This document shows, one piece after another, positions 4,412 to 22,383 of a DNA stretch of 25,101 nt. The translations under genes were made by a program, and so were the position numbers. How positions within the stretch are numbered: position 1 is the first letter of the stretch; each line of letters opens with the position of its first letter. This DNA is from a virus. The notes below the pieces were generated by a model. The model was not told the DNA's origin, did no database searches, and was given only the letters and a program-made list of their open reading frames with translations. Location of the stretch: positions 1 to 25,101 of the IMG/VR virus record IMGVR_UViG_3300018412_000044, one strand, 5' to 3'.

Positions 4412-4485
4412 ATGTGCACAAGGACTCCTAAAACGAGAACGTGTGCTCGCGAGCAACACCACTACAACCCCAAAGAGGAAACACC

Positions 4486-6390
4486 ATGGCAGTCCAGACC
4501 CCCGGCGACCAGCCGAACAGCACCATGTCCGAAGCGCTGGCCCGCGCCAACCTGGGAGCCGAGCCCCGCACCGCCGAAGCGTCCGCCGGCCCGGTCCCGC
4601 CGAACCCGCCCAGCAGCGGTGGTGGCCCGAAGGTGAAGATCTCCGAGATCAACACCCGCATCTACTCCCCGTTCTCCCGTGCGCCGGCCGGCGAAACCGC
4701 CCGTCAGTTCGCCACGCTGATCAAGGAGTCCATCGCGGCGAACCTGAAGGAGTCCGACGTCCCGCAGTACGGTGTGGACATCCTGGACAACAACGAGGCG
4801 CCGATCCCGTACACCACCTTGACGGTGAGCTACGCGGTCAACGTCAACGGCGTGAACCACGCCTCGATCTACATCCTGGTCGTGGAAGCCTCCAGCGACG
4901 GCATCGAGAACCGCGTGTTCAACAAGGGTCCGGGTCAGACCTTCGAGGTCGAGTCCTGGGCCGGTGACGTGGTCGATCAGGACCTGCGTGAGCGTGTGGC
5001 TCGTCAGCTGGCCCTGCGTCTGGGTGAGAAGATCACCATCCATTTCGCCGGTGCTTCGATCCTGCCCAAGGAGCTCAAGCCGGAAACCGCCCAGGACGTG
5101 CGTGACATCGCCCGTACCGCGGTCAATGCGCTGTTCGTGACCATGGATCGCGAAGTCGTGCATACCCAGCCGCGCCTGTCCATCCCGGACCTGGACACCA
5201 GCGCCAACGTGGCGGTGGTGCTGGACTACAGCCCGCGTCCGGTGTTCACCTCCACCGGCCTGCCGATCCGTTCGAACCTGAGCGTGACGATGCGTTCGGG
5301 TGGTTCCAACAGCCGCGATCGCATCCAGCAGCTGACCCGCGTGGACGGCTACGTCGACCTGATCTGGCGTGCACCCGAGCCGCAGGCGCCCAACGCGTAC
5401 GGCCAGCTCCCGCCGCCGCCGCGTTACTTCAACCAGCTGTTCGTGGCCACCCGTATGGACTCGCAGGCCAACGCGACCACGCCGGAATTCCAGCTGCTGG
5501 CCCTGTCCACGCTGCCGGTGCTGTCGATGAACAAGTCCACGCTGGGTGTGTTCAGCCCGCTGTTCCAGGGCGAGACCAACCCGCGTGAGCAGAACCTGCG
5601 CAACCTGGGTGCGCTGGGCTACGAGATCAACCTCTCGCAGGACCCCAACGCCAAGCCCGAAGCGTTCCCGATCAAGCGCGATGGCTTCAACAACAACAGC
5701 CTGATCGAGCTGGCGCAGCGCCTGTTCTACGACGAGATCATCTTCGCCCGGGACATCGAGGAAGTCGGCGACACCAGTTGGCTGGAGATCCACCTGCTCG
5801 AAGCGGCCATGGGCAACTCGGACGCCTACCAGTACATCACCAAGACGGCCGATGCGCTGACCGGCGGGATCTTCGGCAGGCTGTGGGACAACACCCGCCC
5901 GATCGCCTCCTACACGGGCATCCGTCAGCAGCTGGGGTATTTCACCAGCAAGAAGGGCGTGCGTTCGGACATTCGCGAGATCGACTACCTGGCCCTGCGC
6001 AACCTGTTCAAGGACCAGGACAACGGCTTGGTCGAGCGTTTCGACCAGACCTACTACAACACCTCGATCAGCGAAGCCGAGCGTACCAGTGTGCGTGCGG
6101 ACATCTACCGCTCGGTGGTGCCGGACTTCGAGCTCAAGGGCTACGCCCGTCGCCTGTTCCTGAACGCCCAGTTCCTGCAGACGCTGGCGCTGGCGTGCGA
6201 GAAGGCGGGTCTGCACCCGCGTGCCAACAACCTGTTCGCCATCGACGGCAACGGTGGCCGCGTGCCGTTCTCCCAGCTGGACTTCGGCATGCTGCCCAAC
6301 ACCGGCACGCAGTTCTACGGCGCCACCGGCGCGTCGGCGGCTCAGAACTTCGAGTCGCCCATGCCGTTCGCCTCGCTGTTCCGGCAGTAA
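4486..6390 (+). CDS. chmA: Chimallin candidate, phage nucleus shell protein
   Basis: This encodes 634 aa. ATG 4486 is chosen because GAGGAA lies just upstream; the longer frame from 4441 lacks a ribosome site. The first 50 or so residues are low-complexity and rich in Pro, Ala and Gly. A folded region from about residue 50 to 600 follows, then a short Gly/Ala-rich tail ending PMPFASLFRQ. Chimallins of phiKZ-like phages are about this long, have flexible N- and C-terminal segments that stitch the shell lattice together, and are encoded next to the RNA polymerase beta' N-terminal gene (phiKZ gp54/gp55), as here. Codons are strongly biased to C- and G-ending forms, as in a very abundant protein. 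It has a long leader and its own terminator. No catalytic motif is seen. A different abundant structural protein is the main alternative. Confidence 0.7.
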   Translation: MAVQTPGDQPNSTMSEALARANLGAEPRTAEASAGPVPPNPPSSGGGPKVKISEINTRIYSPFSRAPAGETARQFATLIKESIAANLKESDVPQYGVDILDNNEAPIPYTTLTVSYAVNVNGVNHASIYILVVEASSDGIENRVFNKGPGQTFEVESWAGDVVDQDLRERVARQLALRLGEKITIHFAGASILPKELKPETAQDVRDIARTAVNALFVTMDREVVHTQPRLSIPDLDTSANVAVVLDYSPRPVFTSTGLPIRSNLSVTMRSGGSNSRDRIQQLTRVDGYVDLIWRAPEPQAPNAYGQLPPPPRYFNQLFVATRMDSQANATTPEFQLLALSTLPVLSMNKSTLGVFSPLFQGETNPREQNLRNLGALGYEINLSQDPNAKPEAFPIKRDGFNNNSLIELAQRLFYDEIIFARDIEEVGDTSWLEIHLLEAAMGNSDAYQYITKTADALTGGIFGRLWDNTRPIASYTGIRQQLGYFTSKKGVRSDIREIDYLALRNLFKDQDNGLVERFDQTYYNTSISEAERTSVRADIYRSVVPDFELKGYARRLFLNAQFLQTLALACEKAGLHPRANNLFAIDGNGGRVPFSQLDFGMLPNTGTQFYGATGASAAQNFESPMPFASLFRQ

Positions 6391-6484: not shown

Positions 6485-7720
6485 ATGGGCTTCTCTGCCA
6501 GGATCGAAGATCTTGAAGCAGCCTATCGGTGCGCGACCACCCCACCACGACTGATCAACGAGTTTGATGTATCCCTGACCGATGAGGTGGAGCGTCTGAA
6601 TCATCTGGTCTACACCCACTACGAGGGCGATACGCTGTCCATCGTCCCCTCCTGCGACTGCGGGCACATCACCGGCGAGTACAATCACGGCATCGTCTGC
6701 CCGATCTGTCACACCGAAGTGCTCACCGTGACCGAACGGCCGCTGGAGTCCTTGTTGTGGATTGCCCCGCCCAAAGGTGGTAAGTCCTTCGTCAACCCCC
6801 GCGTCTGGTCGATCCTGTCCGGGGTGTTCACCCACCGCACCATCAACTACCTGGAATGGTTCTGCGATCCGTTAGCGCAGTTGCCTGAGTCCTACCCGCC
6901 TTTCGTGGACCGGCTCAACAAGCTGGGCCTGGAGCGTGGGCTGGATGCCTTCATCGAGCACTTCGATGAGTACTGGGCGATCTTCAACGAGCAGGGGCTG
7001 TTCAACGCCAAGCCCCAGACCGTGGAAGCCACCAACGAGTTCGTGCGCCGGTATCGGAACGTGCTGTTCACCCGATTCCTGCCCGTGCCCAGTCGGCTTA
7101 GTTTCATCACCGAAGGTACGGTCACCGGCTCATATGCCGATGACACGATGGTGCCCATGATCGATGCCATCCGTACGGTATCGGCCACGGAGTTCTCCAA
7201 CTACCCGCTCTCTAAGGCGCGGGTGCAGTCGCGTATGTGCAAGATCCAGCGGTTGGTGTCTGAATACCACCGCCTGACGTACGCCGACTCGATCGCCGGT
7301 AAAACCGGGCTGTACCGTAAGAACATCTACGGTGCACGCTTGCACTTCACCTACCGTGCGGTGATTGTGTCCATTGCAGGACCGCACCGGTACGATGAGC
7401 TGCACTTGCCGTGGTCTCTGTCCGTCCAGCTGTTCCGGACGCACCTGACCTCCAAGCTGTTCCGGCGAGGCTTCAATCCTCGAGCTGCGTCCCGGCAGAT
7501 CAACGAGGCGGTGACCTGCTACGATCCTCTGATCGATGAGCTCTTCCACGAGCTGATCCGAGAATCTCGTGGTGGGCTGGGCATCCCCACGCTCTTGGGC
7601 CGTAACCCGACTCTGCAAAGGGGATCTATCCAACGCTTCTACATCTCGAAGATCAAGACCGATGTCACCGACAATGCCATTGGTCTCTCGGTCATGGTGC
7701 TCAAGGCGCCGAATGCGGAT
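6485..7720 (+). CDS. Non-virion RNA polymerase beta' subunit, N-terminal part, exon 1
   Basis: Exon 1 encodes residues 1-412 of a predicted 474-aa protein spliced as 6485-7720 + 8125-8133 + 8472-8651. The start has a strong TTAGGAGGT site. Landmarks of bacterial-type beta' are present: a zinc site C57, C59, C72, C75; GLYRKNIYGARLHFTYRAVI at about 275-294, corresponding to the GKRVDxSxRxVI region; LGRNPTLQRGSIQRF at about 371-385, matching RAPTLHRxxIQ; and NAD at 410-412, the start of the catalytic NADFDGD motif. The frame without splicing adds only 20 unrelated residues and stops at 7781-7783, inside the first intron. It corresponds to phiKZ gp55 by position next to chimallin. The virion polymerase is the alternative, but the gp68-position gene downstream favours the non-virion enzyme. 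Confidence 0.88.
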
Positions 7721-8124
7721 AAACTCACTACACATCAAAAATCTCACCAAGTAACAAGAATCGTCCAGTGGGAAAACGAGTAGTGAACAGTCCCCCCAGC
7801 CGGCAACAGCTGGGTGATAACCTCCTTAATTGCTGGAAACCCTCGTCAAGTCAAAACGCTAAAGCGGAGCGCGAAAGCGCAAACGTCTATGCCTGAAAAG
7901 TTTTGAATAGAGGCAACCAGCAGCCAAGACCTTCCGTAGTGTCGTGAGACAGGATGGGTGGGTAAGGTTCAACGACTATGGCAGGCATGCCAGTACGCTA
8001 CAAGTGAGCGGAAATAGGAGGCTTCCCCTGTGGGAGGGGAAGGTGATATAGTCTCGGCATCCAGGGAGACCTGGAGCAGTCCCTTGAGGACGGGCTGGAA
8101 TTAACGACCCAGTCGAAGACCCCG
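7721..8124 (+). ncRNA. Group I intron 1 (404 nt, no endonuclease) in the beta' gene
   Basis: All conserved group I core elements are in order: P (AATTGCTGG, 7828-7836), Q (AACCAGCAGCCAAG, 7915-7928), R (GGTTCAACGACTA, 7966-7978) and S (GATATAGTC, 8045-8053). P7 pairs GACTA (7974-7978) with TAGTC (8049-8053). P2 is CCCAGC/GCTGGG (7795-7800/7809-7814). A CCAGG-GAGA-CCTGG hairpin with a GNRA loop follows at 8061-8074, as expected for P9. The intron follows a U (7720) and ends in G (8124), the usual rule. The P1 guide is weak: only GGAU with GUCC (7763-7766 or 7790-7793), so the 5' site rests mainly on the reading frame. No ORF for a homing enzyme fits. The core resembles subgroup IA of phages. 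Confidence 0.88.
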
Positions 8125-8133
8125 TACGACGGT
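8125..8133 (+). CDS. 9-nt micro-exon of the beta' gene encoding Y-D-G
   Basis: TACGACGGT lies between a G that ends intron 1 and the first base of intron 2, and itself ends in U as group I 5' sites require. It encodes residues 413-415 (YDG), exactly what is missing between NAD of exon 1 and DQLN of exon 3 to complete NADYDGDQLN. Six of its nine bases (8128-8133) also pair with the internal guide of intron 2 (GCCGTC, 8142-8147) to form P1. D414 is the middle catalytic aspartate. Confidence 0.82.
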
Positions 8134-8471
8134 GAGCGGTTGCCGTCATTAAACTCCTTAAATTGCTGGGATCTCTCGGTAGGCCAGGCCGCCACAGCGG
8201 AGCGTGTAAACGCAGACGTCACGGTTTGAAAAGGTCTGGATAGAGACAATCAGCAGCCAAGCGCCCTACGTACTGTCGTGAGACAGGATGGAGGATGAAG
8301 GTTCAACGACTAGCCGAAAGGCGTAGCTGACCAAGTGGCAGCGAAACAGGGAGCCCTCAGATGGGGGAAGATATAGTCTACCGTCGGCGAGAGTCGGCGT
8401 TGGTGGCGATCTGGAAGTCGCACCGACCGGAGTCACGACCCGGGAGTTCGTTGGTAACGAACGATCATCAG
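8134..8471 (+). ncRNA. Group I intron 2 (338 nt, no endonuclease) in the beta' gene
   Basis: Core elements are P (AATTGCTGG, 8161-8169), Q (AATCAGCAGCCAAG, 8248-8261), R (GGTTCAACGACTA, 8300-8312) and S (GATATAGTC, 8370-8378). P7 pairs GACTA (8308-8312) with TAGTC (8374-8378). P1 is a perfect 6-bp helix between exon GACGGU (8128-8133) and guide GCCGUC (8142-8147), with the required U-G pair at the splice site. P10 pairs intron GGUU (8138-8141) with exon 3 GACC (8472-8475). The intron ends in G (8471). A 7-bp hairpin (8446-8462) lies near the 3' end. It is closely related to intron 1, sharing an 18-nt identical block and the R element. No endonuclease ORF fits inside. Confidence 0.92.
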
Positions 8472-8651
8472 GACCAGCTCAACGGTACACTGATTCTGGA
8501 CAACTACGAGGACGATCGTTTCATGGCTTTGGCCCCTCATACCGGCGTGATCGATATCGCCGTGCCGAGGAAGATCTCTTCCAACGTAACCATCCCGGCT
8601 CCAGCGGCCAGCACCATCGGCAACTGGATTCGGGCAGCACGTACCGCGTAA
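8472..8651 (+). CDS. Non-virion RNA polymerase beta' subunit, N-terminal part, exon 3
   Basis: Exon 3 encodes the last 59 residues (DQLNGTLILDNYEDDRFMAL...NWIRAARTA). Its first codon supplies D416, the third metal-binding aspartate of NADYDGD, and the following QLNGTLIL matches the conserved continuation of that motif in beta' subunits. There is no ribosome site or sensible start codon at the exon border, and the open frame extends upstream into intron 2 only by chance. These points argue against an independent gene. Termination at 8649-8651 is followed at once by a strong hairpin. The split after this region fits phiKZ-like phages, where the rest of beta' is a separate protein (here 20467-22383). 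Confidence 0.85.
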   Translation, partial: DQLNGTLILDNYEDDRFMALAPHTGVIDIAVPRKISSNVTIPAPAASTIGNWIRAARTA

Positions 8652-17831: not shown

Positions 17832-18179
17832 TTAGAGGATCTTGTTTGTTTGGGCTTTATAGGACGCCACCAGCGAGTCGATCCGCCCCGGTGCCGGGAT
17901 CATGATCTCAGACAACTGCGAGGTGTTCTCTGTGGGCGCCAGCAGTCCGTTCATGCGCATGACGATGAAGTGCAGGTACATCGGGATCTGCATGGACAGC
18001 AACAGGCCGTGCCAGTCCGATTCGTACTTGACCGCGCTATGCGGCTCCACCGGCAGGGTCATGTTGTCCGGTGCCATCAGCAGGTAAGGCAGGTGGCTCT
18101 CCACCATGCGACGAAACGCCGGCAGGTAGAACACATCATCGCCGTAGTCTACGGCCAGGGCATTGATCGAACAGCTCAT
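17832..18179 (-). CDS. Small minus-strand protein of unknown function
   Basis: This encodes 115 aa (MSCSINALAVDYGDDVFYLP...QTNKIL). On the minus strand, GAAGGA lies about 6 nt upstream of the ATG, a fair ribosome site. It contains a hydrophobic middle (GLLLSMQIPMYLHFIVMRMNG) that could be a buried core or a single membrane segment. It is a lone reversed gene between two plus-strand units and diverges from the beta C-terminal gene with a 71-nt shared control region. It may be an early regulator or an inserted gene. No family was recognised. Confidence 0.65.
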   Translation of the reverse strand: MSCSINALAVDYGDDVFYLPAFRRMVESHLPYLLMAPDNMTLPVEPHSAVKYESDWHGLLLSMQIPMYLHFIVMRMNGLLAPTENTSQLSEIMIPAPGRIDSLVASYKAQTNKIL

Positions 18180-18206
18180 TGGGCTTCCTTCAGGGCACTA
18201 TAGACG

Positions 18207-18224
18207 CTCAGACCTATAACATCC
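18207..18224 (+). promoter_or_regulatory. Candidate phage promoter motif, copy 4 (beta/beta' operon)
   Basis: CTCAGACCTATAACATCC fits the 18-nt motif and lies in the short divergent gap, ending 26 nt before the beta C-terminal start. It is the only obvious promoter candidate for the 18251-22383 operon. Confidence 0.45.
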
Positions 18225-18250
18225 CTCTGCTACCACAGTTAGGAGCCACC

Positions 18251-20470
18251 ATGGAACCCATCAACGAACTACGGCCGGAGATCATCTCCAAGGCCGCGCT
18301 GTCGCCGTACCACTTCTGCACCTCGCCTTCGCGTATGCAGATGTACGGTGGCAGTCATTTGTCCCAATCTCTGGTAGTGGAAGGCAGTGAACCGCCTTTG
18401 CTCACCACGGGCATGGACATGGAATTTGGACGCTTTACCTTCAACATCAAGGCTCCGTGTAACCTCACGGTGATCCGGGTGATCCAGAAGTACCCACCCA
18501 CCTACGACAGCAGCCGCATCGAGCAGAACCCGATGACGCTGCTGATCTACGAGAATGCCGAGAACGGGGAGATTGGCTGCATCAGCGTCCCCAGTCACCA
18601 CTGTCTGCACCAGCACTTTGGCTTTGCCTACAACTTCAAGCCGGAGATGGCAGGTATCACCCAGGGCGTGGAGCTCGAGCAGGGTACGGTGCTGGCCGAT
18701 AGCCCCTCGGTCAAGCCGTCTGGGGAATACGGCATGGGCTTGAATGCCAACGTGGTGTTCATGTCTGACCCCAGCGTCATTGAAGACGGTGTGGTGATCA
18801 GTGAGTCCTTCGCCAAGCGCATGACCACGCTGGGTGTGGAGAAACGCTCGGCCACGTGGGGGTCCAAGCGCTTTCCCATCAACCTGTACGGCACCAAGGA
18901 CGTCTACAAGCCCTTCCCGGACATCGGCGATCCCATTCGGGCTGACGGGTTGGTGTTTGCCCTGCGCGAGTACGATGACCTGATGGCGCCGGTGGAGATG
19001 ACGCCTGAAGCACTGATGCGGGTGGACTACGAGTTCGACAAGCTCTACTACGCCCCGCACGGAGCCAAGCGGGCTCGGGTGATCGACGTGGACGTGTTCC
19101 GGGGTAATAACCGGAATCCACCGCTGACGCCTTTCGGCATGGAAGACCAATGCGTCAAGTACTACGAAGCCAAGCGTCGGTACTGTGAAGCCGTGGTAGC
19201 CACGTATGCCGAGCTGCGTAGCCGTAGGCGTGATCTGCTGCGCGTGACGCCAGAGTTCCAGCGCATCTACAAGGAAGCCCGCATTTTCCTCGACGGCCAT
19301 CGCCATCGGGTGGTGCTGATCCACCAGCGCGTGCCACTGGATGAGTGGCGGGTGGAGCTGACGGTGGAGTACACCCTGATCCCGACGCTGGCCTTCAAGC
19401 AGACCGGTCGATACGGCAACAAAGGGGTTGTGGTTGATGTGCGACCTGATGCAGATATGCCTCGGGATGCCTTCGGCAACGTCGCTGAGATCATTACCGA
19501 CGGCAAAGCCATCGTCAAGCGCATGAACCCGGGGGTGATCTACGAGCAGTACGCCACGGCTGCTGACCGTGATATGCGCAAGCGGGTATTGGAGATGATC
19601 CAGCAGCCCACCGCCGCCAACGTCAAAAAGGCGTGGGAGTACCTGCTGGGCTTCATCCGTATCGTCAGCCCGCGCATGTACCAGATGCTCAGCTCTGCAG
19701 ACTACCGCGGTACGCCGCTGAGCTTCATGCGTGGGGGGTCTGAGCGTGGCTATGACATCTACAGCCCAGCCGATAACCCCATCGACGTGGTGCAGATGCT
19801 CACCCAGCTGCGCGAGCACTACCGGCCGAACTTCTCGCCGGTGACCTACCGCGCGCCCAGTGGGGAGATGGTGACGACCGTGGAGGACGTGCTCATCGGC
19901 ACGGTGTACATCTTGCTGCTGGAGAAAACCGGTGGCGATTACTCCTCGGTAGACTCGGCCAAGCTTCAGCACTTTGGTATCCCCTCCAAGGTGAGCAAGT
20001 CGGACAAATACTCCTCGCCAGGCCGTAAGACGCCTACCCGTACGCTGGGTGAGGCCGAAGTACGGTCCGTGTCGGCGTTCGTGGGCGGGGATATCGTGCG
20101 GGAGAAACTGGAGATGTCCAACAGCCCGCGCACCCATCGGCACGTGATCCACAACCTGATGGATTCGCCCACGCCCTCCAACGTGGCCAGGATCATCGAC
20201 CGGACGGTCATCCCGGAAGGCGGTGGTCGTTCACTGGACCTGGGACGGCATCAGCTGTTCACCAGTGGCGTACGGCTGACCTACGAGCCGTGCGTGGAGG
20301 ATGGGAAGATCTACCACGACACCGACTCAGCCCATGCCCTGTTCGGCGATGTGGACGAGTCCGGCGCGGATGCGGAGGGTGAGCGGGACGAGCTGGAGGA
20401 AGAGGAGGATAGCAAGCCGGGGAAGGAAGCCCCCAGTGACGATGATGATTCCGAGGAGGATGACGAATGA
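18251..20470 (+). CDS. Non-virion RNA polymerase beta subunit, C-terminal part
   Basis: This encodes 739 aa. ATG 18251 follows TTAGGAG; the longer frame to 18179 overlaps the divergent gene and is rejected. Hallmarks of the catalytic half of bacterial beta are present: ADSPSVKPSGEYGMGLNANVVF (about 149-170) and EDGVVISESF (178-187), matching the conserved FEDAILISE region. GRYGNKGVVVDV (386-397) matches GRHGNKGVIS, whose lysine contacts the active site, and is followed by a DMP segment. The last 40 or so residues are strongly acidic. It corresponds to phiKZ gp71-73, which is intron-split there but continuous here. The beta N-terminal part is not in this window. The stop overlaps the next start (ATGA), so the two large subunits are probably made in equal amounts. 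Confidence 0.88.
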   Translation: MEPINELRPEIISKAALSPYHFCTSPSRMQMYGGSHLSQSLVVEGSEPPLLTTGMDMEFGRFTFNIKAPCNLTVIRVIQKYPPTYDSSRIEQNPMTLLIYENAENGEIGCISVPSHHCLHQHFGFAYNFKPEMAGITQGVELEQGTVLADSPSVKPSGEYGMGLNANVVFMSDPSVIEDGVVISESFAKRMTTLGVEKRSATWGSKRFPINLYGTKDVYKPFPDIGDPIRADGLVFALREYDDLMAPVEMTPEALMRVDYEFDKLYYAPHGAKRARVIDVDVFRGNNRNPPLTPFGMEDQCVKYYEAKRRYCEAVVATYAELRSRRRDLLRVTPEFQRIYKEARIFLDGHRHRVVLIHQRVPLDEWRVELTVEYTLIPTLAFKQTGRYGNKGVVVDVRPDADMPRDAFGNVAEIITDGKAIVKRMNPGVIYEQYATAADRDMRKRVLEMIQQPTAANVKKAWEYLLGFIRIVSPRMYQMLSSADYRGTPLSFMRGGSERGYDIYSPADNPIDVVQMLTQLREHYRPNFSPVTYRAPSGEMVTTVEDVLIGTVYILLLEKTGGDYSSVDSAKLQHFGIPSKVSKSDKYSSPGRKTPTRTLGEAEVRSVSAFVGGDIVREKLEMSNSPRTHRHVIHNLMDSPTPSNVARIIDRTVIPEGGGRSLDLGRHQLFTSGVRLTYEPCVEDGKIYHDTDSAHALFGDVDESGADAEGERDELEEEEDSKPGKEAPSDDDDSEEDDE

Positions 20471-22383
20471 CCTACACCGCACGACAACTGGCAACCTGGG
20501 ATACCCAGGCGCTGCTGGCATTGCCCGAACAAGTGTTCGAGGTGAAATTCGATGACGGCATTGCCCAGATCCAGCGTCGGGAGCTGATCTACGGGGCGAT
20601 TTGCTGGCGGATGTACAATGTCCTGCCTCCGTGCCCCACCAGCATCCGGCATTCGGTCAATGGCCGGGAGATCTCCACAATGCTCCATGCCACGATCATG
20701 GGTGAGATCCTCTGGGATGCCGTGGACCACAACCCCACGGTGGAAGTCGACTGGGATCGGGCAACCCGGGAGCTGTATGCCAGCACCAATGAGATCTACA
20801 ACGCTCTGATCCAGGAAGCGGCTGCGCATGTGGAGACCATCAACGCTGAGCACTTCATCGACATCATGCTCGAGCCGAGTATCGCCAAAGCCCGAGCGGA
20901 GGTCAAACCCACCACGCTGAGCATCGACACGCTTTATGCGACCGTCCAGTCCACGATGCGTGAATCGCCTGCGCTGCGTAACAACCCGGTGGTGCGTTCG
21001 GTAATGACGGGGATGCTGGACTCCTCGCAGGTGGCTCAGTGCGTGGGTGCCCGTGGGTTCATGACCGATATCGATGGGCACATCTTCCGGGACCCGGTGA
21101 TCTCCTCCTACGCCGGCGGGGTCATGACAGCACTGCAGTCGCTGATTGACTCCCGTTCAGCTTCGGTGGCGGCACTGACCAACGGTACGCCGCTGCGCAA
21201 GACCGAGACGTTCAACCGGCGTATCCAGCTGCTGGCCGGTGTGATGGGGACTTTCTCCATGCACGACTGCCGCAGCCCCCACCATCTGAAGTGGATGGTG
21301 GGTTCGGGGGATCTGAAACATCTGAACGGCATGTACTACCAGAACGAGCAGGGCGGGTACTCGCGCGTCACGCTCAAGTCCGCCGAGCTGGTGGGTAAGA
21401 CCATCAACGTGCGCACCGTGCTCACGTGCATGTCGCCCGACCCCACCCGGCCGTGTGAGATGTGCTTTGGTGAGCTGGCCAGTTCCATCCCCAAGGGCAC
21501 CAGCGTGGGCCATGCATCCTCAGTGGCTCTGTGTATGCCCGCCACCCAGGGAGCGTTGTCCACCAAGCACTTGATCCGCTCCGCGCATGCCTCTACGATT
21601 CAGTTCTCTGAGGAGGAGCTGCGCTACGTGCGTCACAGCACGGATGGGATGTCTGTGCTGCTTAATCCTCGCCTGAAAGGGAAGAAACTGTGGCTGGAGA
21701 TAGCAGCCTCGGAGGCGCAGAACATCGGTAACGTCAAGTACGTCAGCGGTGTGCGTGAGTTGCGGCTGGAGTCTACCTCCCAGATCACCACCATCGGTCT
21801 GACGAGCATCGATGCCTCCGGGATGGAGTCTCGGGTGGATATCCTGGTCACCGACACCACGGCTCGGGCTTCGATTTCCTATGAAATGCTTGAGCACATC
21901 CAACGGGCTGGCTTTACCGTCAGCCCGCGTGGGAACTTCCAGATCCCGCTGGATGACTGGGACTACAATGCCCCGGTCTTGGTGTTGCCGGCTAAGCACA
22001 TCTCCATGGTCGAGCAGATGCTTACGATCGTGGGATTCTTTGGCTCTACCCGCAAAGCCGGCAAGAAAGTCCTGGCCGATTCCAAGTCACCGGAAGAAGC
22101 CCTGCGGGCCCTGCATGCGGTCGTCAATGCAAGGTTGTCGGTGAATCTGGCATACCTGGCACTGCTGATCAAGTGCTGTATGGCGCGTAACCCCGCCGAT
22201 GGGGATTACCGTATCCCCCACTATGGCAATGCGGTGCACTTCATCACGATGGACACTGCCATCTACCGCCGATCCATGGCGGCCATGATGGCCTACCAGC
22301 GTCACAGCTACCAGCTCAAAGATCCGGTGCAGTTCTTGCTGCGTAACCGGCCGGACCATCTGCTGGACCCCATCTTGATGTAA
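20467..22383 (+). CDS. Non-virion RNA polymerase beta' subunit, C-terminal part
   Basis: This encodes 638 aa, starting in an ATGA overlap with the beta gene. Residues about 189-260 (QVAQCVGARGFMTDIDGHIF...LTNGTPLRKTETFNRRIQLL) match the beta' bridge helix/trigger loop region, where bacteria have GARK...T..SGYLTRR. Four cysteines, C268, C321, C330 and C333, reproduce the second zinc site. SVALCMPATQGALSTKHLIR (about 352-371) matches the AAQSIGEPGTQLTMRTFH segment. It completes the active centre with the spliced beta' N-terminal protein (6485-8651). Its likely equivalent is phiKZ gp74. A terminator follows the stop. The bacterial GEPGTQ core is changed to MPATQG, as expected for a very divergent enzyme. 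Confidence 0.88.
   Translation: MTYTARQLATWDTQALLALPEQVFEVKFDDGIAQIQRRELIYGAICWRMYNVLPPCPTSIRHSVNGREISTMLHATIMGEILWDAVDHNPTVEVDWDRATRELYASTNEIYNALIQEAAAHVETINAEHFIDIMLEPSIAKARAEVKPTTLSIDTLYATVQSTMRESPALRNNPVVRSVMTGMLDSSQVAQCVGARGFMTDIDGHIFRDPVISSYAGGVMTALQSLIDSRSASVAALTNGTPLRKTETFNRRIQLLAGVMGTFSMHDCRSPHHLKWMVGSGDLKHLNGMYYQNEQGGYSRVTLKSAELVGKTINVRTVLTCMSPDPTRPCEMCFGELASSIPKGTSVGHASSVALCMPATQGALSTKHLIRSAHASTIQFSEEELRYVRHSTDGMSVLLNPRLKGKKLWLEIAASEAQNIGNVKYVSGVRELRLESTSQITTIGLTSIDASGMESRVDILVTDTTARASISYEMLEHIQRAGFTVSPRGNFQIPLDDWDYNAPVLVLPAKHISMVEQMLTIVGFFGSTRKAGKKVLADSKSPEEALRALHAVVNARLSVNLAYLALLIKCCMARNPADGDYRIPHYGNAVHFITMDTAIYRRSMAAMMAYQRHSYQLKDPVQFLLRNRPDHLLDPILM

Follow-up and report, generated by a model that had tools for sequence, protein, structure and literature searches.

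Results

A beta'-N gene in three exons

The window, by which we mean the whole stretch of DNA analysed here, comprises positions 1 to 25,101 of the IMG/VR virus record IMGVR_UViG_3300018412_000044, and the whole record holds only these 25,101 bases. An RNA polymerase gene interrupted at its catalytic motif lies downstream of a chimallin gene, with the following features:

4441-6390, + strand, chimallin, the phage nuclear shell protein (Pfam PF25677, E = 1.3e-28; PHROG 4795)
6485-7720, + strand, exon 1 of the beta'-N gene, residues 1-412, ending N-A-D (PHROG 2987; joined protein against 7ogp_A)
7721-8124, + strand, group I intron 1, 404 nt, with terminal G (Rfam RF00028, 58.8 bits; ORF list; spliced profile alignment)
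7781-7786, + strand, tandem in-frame stop codons TAG TGA, which end the unspliced frame just 5' of the intron 1 guide
7790-7793, + strand, GUCC, the probable guide (IGS) of intron 1, which pairs with GGAU, the last bases of exon 1 (7717-7720; 4 bp with U.G)
8125-8133, + strand, micro-exon TACGACGGT, 9 nt, residues 413-415, Y-D-G (spliced profile alignment; shuffle test; same split in L226)
8134-8471, + strand, group I intron 2, 338 nt, with terminal G (Rfam RF00028, 49.5 bits, local E = 1e-11)
8138-8141, + strand, P10 strand of intron 2, GGUU, which pairs with the opening bases of exon 3, GACC (8472-8475)
8142-8147, + strand, guide (IGS) of intron 2, GCCGUC, pairing with GACGGU of the micro-exon at 8128-8133 (6 bp with U.G)
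8472-8651, + strand, exon 3, residues 416-474 and the stop codon, starting D-Q-L-N (homology; alignment with intron-less homologues)
18179-20470 and 20467-22383, + strand, two more RNA polymerase genes (PHROG 3295 and PHROG 3015)

The chimallin match scores 100 bits with PF25677 against a cut-off of 27, which meets the Chimalliviridae criterion of a chimallin gene. On the strength of this gene, which lies upstream of the beta'-N gene, we assign the window to a nucleus-forming giant phage. The identity of the interrupted gene is observed through homology. The product of exon 1 matches PHROG 2987 (RNA polymerase beta subunit) with E = 8.5e-127, and the joined 474-residue protein aligns over residues 1-469 with PDB chain 7ogp_A (E = 7.4e-100), which its depositors named PHIKZ055 plus PHIKZ056.1, that is, beta'-N of the phiKZ non-virion RNA polymerase. 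The joined protein fulfils our criterion for a phiKZ-type non-virion beta'-N, namely full-length homology together with the NADxDGD motif, and the assignment of the gene to beta'-N of the non-virion RNA polymerase of a nucleus-forming phage is supported. An earlier note on this DNA had recognized in the joined string NADYDGDQLN the metal-binding motif of multisubunit RNA polymerases and had suggested an alignment to phiKZ gp55 as a check; the phiKZ homology bears this out.

AATGCGGAT ends at 7720, TACGACGGT occupies 8125-8133 and GACCAGCTCAAC begins at 8472, with one copy of each in the window. When the three exons are joined, the frame is preserved and stays open for 474 codons; the coordinates, the length of 474 aa and the aspartate numbering (D412, D414, D416) of the earlier note are correct. 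The codons for these three metal-binding aspartates sit on three different exons. The joined protein also aligns with intron-less homologues, and a spliced profile alignment to which no boundaries were supplied returned the same four splice sites, using a protein profile of 101 sequences that included the joined window protein. In dinucleotide shuffles of 7721-8471 (751 nt), 31 of 20,000 cases contained a G|[FY]DG(GGT) string no closer than 200 nt to either end, and 1 of 20,000 combined such a string with a P1 of at least 6 bp within 30 nt. The unspliced exon 1 frame continues 20 codons into intron 1 before it stops at 7781, and since the TAG TGA pair lies in the P1 extension ahead of the guide, a ribosome on unspliced RNA would halt before the intron 1 core.

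Intron cores and splice signals

The Rfam Intron_gpI covariance search proposed in that note finds both introns. Intron 1 matches at 7774-8076 with 58.8 bits (E = 9e-13, whole window searched), and intron 2 matches the full model at 8124-8399 with 49.5 bits (E = 1e-11, 441 nt searched), 0.5 bit short of the RF00028 gathering score of 50. We count the group I core (P3-P8, by covariance model) as met for both; homologues of intron 2 at the same site score higher, with 89.1 bits in the relative L226 and 77.8 bits in L471. The list of open reading frames contains none of endonuclease size in 7721-8471, and the homing-endonuclease criterion is not met by the window introns; introns of relatives at the same sites carry HNH genes.

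Splice-site signals and guide pairing are likewise observed. Both 3' ends carry a terminal G (CCCCG|TAC for intron 1, ATCAG|GAC for intron 2), and in both introns P1, of 4 and 6 bp respectively, pairs the final U of the 5' exon with a G of the guide. In intron 2 the guide begins nine bases into the intron, and P1 folds with -10.8 kcal/mol, the exon strand lying wholly within the micro-exon. For intron 1, the minimum-energy fold of 7713-7815 (z = -2.8) contains P1 with its extension as well as P2; another GUCC, at 7763-7766, is less likely to be the guide. Intron 1 has weak points, namely a P1 of only 4 bp with a long loop and no clear P10. At its 3' end it closely matches, with near identity, an L010 intron that occupies the corresponding site. 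Compensatory changes of the guide occur in L266, where exon GAC has become GAU and guide GUC has become AUC, and in L276, where exon GGU has become GGA and guide ACC has become UCC. The claim that two group I introns flank a 9-nt micro-exon is hence backed by covariance models, guide pairing, homology and related loci, with splicing itself unobserved.

Micro-exons in related phages

We gathered beta'-N genes from IMG/VR and from named phages. In 92 of 148 distinct beta'-N sequences no intron was called in the region studied. Among the remaining sequences, most credible calls fall within or at the edge of P-NADFDGD-Q, except for a recurrent site at N374|P375; the occupied sites are A408|P409, codon 409 in phase 1, N410|A411, A411|D412, D412|F413, codon 413 in phase 1 or 2, D414|G415, G415|D416, D416|Q417 and one at 417|418. 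The last exon base is U at nearly all of them. The single sites used by the window introns are occupied in many phages, AR9 included, and many phages share the gene order of the window, with one intron or two.

Recurrence extends to the micro-exon itself. L226 is split as NAD|FDG|D at the same two sites as the window, leaving a 9-nt micro-exon FDG between introns of 69.5 and 89.1 bits. L249 carries a 12-nt micro-exon FDGD (introns of 86.0 and 90.9 bits), L287 and L482 each a 15-nt micro-exon ADFDG (all four introns above the Rfam cut-off), and L275 one of 20 nt (89.2 and 83.4 bits). Both introns flanking the 12-nt micro-exon DFDG of L407 exceed the cut-off, the 3' end of the second lying outside the stored DNA. 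L010 (6249-7658) holds three introns in one NADFDGD motif, separated by exons of 6 nt (AD) and 12 nt (FDGD): the first scores 65.5 bits, the third only a weak 21.8 bits (E = 0.007), and the middle one, unrecognized by Rfam, is identified only by conserved core strings and splice signals. In Goslar (L499 5637-5649, NC_048170.1), a phage that infects laboratory E. coli and whose beta'-N gene is annotated only as fragments, a 13-nt piece CGACGGTGACGCT (C GAC GGT GAC GCT) follows an intron annotated as group I in the record and precedes one that matches weakly (16.7 bits, E = 0.065); Goslar thus probably carries a 13-nt micro-exon in the motif, as judged from its DNA.

On a tree of 122 beta'-N proteins, the nine micro-exon loci correspond to nine state changes, all forced by supported branches, and we therefore see no sign of shared origin; long branches make the details of this tree rough. 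The motif is accordingly split into micro-exons in eight, probably nine, genomes without shared origin on the protein tree.

Several candidates were set aside. An exact search of viral contigs with TACGACGGTGAGCGG returned 81 stretches, none of which proved to be a further carrier of the gene in later surveys, and we regard them as chance matches. Intron calls at residues 467/468 in the spliced alignment are artefacts of the profile's end or poor fits, and the scattered short exons in L092, L209, L453, L457, L458, L463 and L103 and in the tails of L501 and L505 are alignment artefacts.

Probable origin of the introns

Group I introns favour conserved sites. How two came to lie so close together may be explained in more than one way, and one account, which concerns origin only, gives each site its own old intron lineage with site-specific endonucleases, a micro-exon resulting where lineages meet without any local spread. 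Clades do exist that keep to one site (L287/L471/L476 at G415|D416, phiKZ/L019 at N410|A411 and L276/PS119XW at D416|Q417), and introns of different lineages stand side by side in L482, L275 and L010. A tree of 42 motif introns nevertheless speaks against such lineages: a single clade is rejected both for all G415|D416 introns (p = 0.004) and for all D412|F413 introns (p about 1e-126), and the insertion site is barely conserved, with 23 changes on the tree against 25.5 when shuffled. Moreover, sister pairs from the same phage number 4 where 0.24 are expected (0 of 5000 shuffles), in L226, L249, L407 and L459, and in three micro-exon loci both introns are each other's closest relatives. These tree tests reject the account in its pure form, and overall we hold it to be possible but doubtful.

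The window introns themselves are sisters (95/87) in this motif-only tree. In a larger tree, to which about 80 introns from other contigs were added by core pattern, an intron of Xanthomonas phage LucasX groups with window intron 2 and so separates it from intron 1. Duplication as the source of the window pair is consequently unsure; the tree test does not reject a clade formed by the two (p = 0.445). Motif introns cluster apart from those of other contigs (10 changes against 35.5 shuffled), and a few of the added introns may also lie in the beta'-N gene.

The simplest reading of these sequence data is an intron family that moves among neighbouring sites of one hotspot, either by local duplication or by new arrival, the micro-exon being what would remain between two introns inserted in one gene. 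The first intron would split the usual homing site of the second, 9 nt away; we infer that the second intron would be able to enter by reverse splicing or through an endonuclease that recognizes a single side of the site, and the route of insertion as a whole is an inference.

The DNA of the motif is itself repetitive, with GAY occurring three times, and the phage nucleus separates transcription from translation. Speculatively, and with the odds in our view well against it, the motif could serve as a landing strip on which introns multiply locally and re-target their guides within GAY-TTY-GAY-GGN-GAY, each intron re-inserting a few bases away through reverse splicing or a tolerant endonuclease; multi-intron genes would then be tolerated owing to the separation afforded by the phage nucleus, and splicing of the polymerase mRNA would act as a checkpoint for late transcription.

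Discussion

Our analysis leads us to favour, with a probability of roughly 0.87, two independently folding and separately excised group I introns that lie 9 nt apart in the NADYDGD motif and arose by insertion into a hotspot, a reading made from DNA in the absence of RNA data. Intron 1 would hold the end of exon 1 (GGAU) through its guide GUCC, and intron 2 would hold the last six bases of the micro-exon (GACGGU) through GCCGUC. Each would be excised, in either order, by two transesterifications that use an outside guanosine and the intron's own terminal G, and the product after both excisions would read NAD-YDG-DQLN in frame. What happens in the cell is inferred, namely that splicing occurs, in what order and how efficiently, and so is self-splicing with exogenous guanosine; retention of the micro-exon in the mature RNA is inferred from conservation and guide pairing only. 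On this reading of two separately excised introns, the polymerase works only if very small exons are rejoined correctly.

A nine-base exon can be omitted without loss of frame, and in Twort and SIOphi an exon flanked by group I introns is known to be skipped (PMC11878797). The micro-exon might accordingly be mostly skipped, with the 5' site of intron 1 joined to the 3' site of intron 2 to give NADDQLN, a mostly dead or regulatory subunit. We consider this very unlikely, as skipping in the main product would leave no active polymerase, while conserved residues are kept in all three exons and in every relative's motif. Each intron also has its own P1, the guides pairing over 4 and 6 bp with their own exons and over only 1 and 3 bp with the exon of the other intron. 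Even less credible is a broken, unspliced gene whose function is supplied by an undamaged copy outside the window. Such a copy cannot be ruled out, the record being only 25 kb of the genome, but the exons are intact and conserved, the splice signals are intact, and many phages have this gene order with one intron or two. Least plausible of all is a twintron, in which the 9 nt would not be an exon and both introns would be removed together with them, or the removal of one intron would rely on the other. Fungal mitochondria do have tandem twintrons whose spacers are short (PMC12308204), but both cores here are complete with a P1 and a terminal G each, and the 9 nt encode exactly the residues missing from the invariant motif.

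The arrangement that we favour, two introns excised separately around a retained micro-exon, has partial counterparts. In phiKZ (PHIKZ055, the HNH gene PHIKZ056 and PHIKZ056.1), the same gene follows chimallin and a group I intron (75.6 bits) interrupts the same motif, and the joined beta'-N protein is present in the solved structure; unlike the window, phiKZ has one intron, at N410|A411, of 1372 nt with an HNH gene, and no micro-exon. Bacillus phage AR9 g270, annotated as spliced, is interrupted at G415|D416, where window intron 2 also sits, and the two introns have the same P1, but AR9 is a distant phage with one HNH-bearing intron and no micro-exon; HNH genes occur within introns in phiKZ, Goslar and AR9. 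For the polymerase genes of nucleus-forming phages, endonuclease-bearing group I introns have been published from PhiPA3, whose gp210 has such an intron beside conserved aspartates; it differs from the window in being a beta subunit gene, of a polymerase homologous to the phiKZ virion enzyme, with a single intron and a working homing endonuclease (PMC11620839).

Outside this group, a micro-exon of 1 nt separates two group I introns in placozoan mitochondrial cox1 and has been attributed to insertion beside an older intron; here the setting is an animal mitochondrion, with group IB introns of one lineage and proof by RNA-seq (PMC5436844). The Bastillevirinae phages phiNIT1 and SIOphi, and Twort orf142, show neighbouring group I introns with a small exon and skipping in cDNA, in other genes and not in a polymerase active-site motif (PMC11878797). 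The preference of introns for active-site codons is also a published idea (PMC12908238). Single introns at this motif (phiKZ, AR9) and mitochondrial micro-exons between group I introns (PMC5436844, PMC8971849) were already known.

The earlier note had called the arrangement very unusual and knew of no described example. For micro-exons in a phage polymerase motif we likewise found no description in the open-access literature, to which our search was confined and which is no proof of absence. Micro-exons between group I introns as such are known from mitochondria, and the rarity is qualified by the seven further contigs, and probably Goslar, that have micro-exons in this motif. It is more general than first supposed, the exons cut from these few codons in relatives being 6 to 20 nt long. 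It is now possible to test with what accuracy a pair of adjacent ribozymes splices a 9-nt exon, whether introns spread locally with a change of guide, and whether the phage nucleus lets multi-intron genes survive. Because introns split the motif, many phage records list the essential beta'-N gene in pieces.

Several minor observations accompany these results. The N374|P375 site (RN|P) forms a second intron hotspot in the same gene, seen in L407, L444/L269, L021, L022, L024, L497, L498 and L506. In L459 (about 4633-5605), sister group I introns (100/98) at S381 and D412|F413 lie 95 nt apart, a pair that from its sequence is likely another local duplication. The 3' end of intron 2 in L287 (7630-7656) has an extra short stretch, ACTACCAATGCTAGTGGTGTGATTTGG, before exon 3. 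In Raoultella phage VB_ZK_P1 (L501 4626-4936), a good group I intron precedes a 12-nt piece encoding DFDG, beyond which there is no group I core; the sequence 3' of this piece resembles a group II intron in its GTGCG start and other stretches. A stretch of PhiPA3 just downstream of DNA polymerase gene 085 and outside annotated genes (L025 3001-3119; NC_028999.1, 74587-74705) resembles intron 1 and is possibly an unannotated group I intron. Finally, Xanthomonas phage LucasX (MW825358.1, 12938-13038) matches window intron 1 with 71% over about 100 nt at a position away from its polymerase gene.
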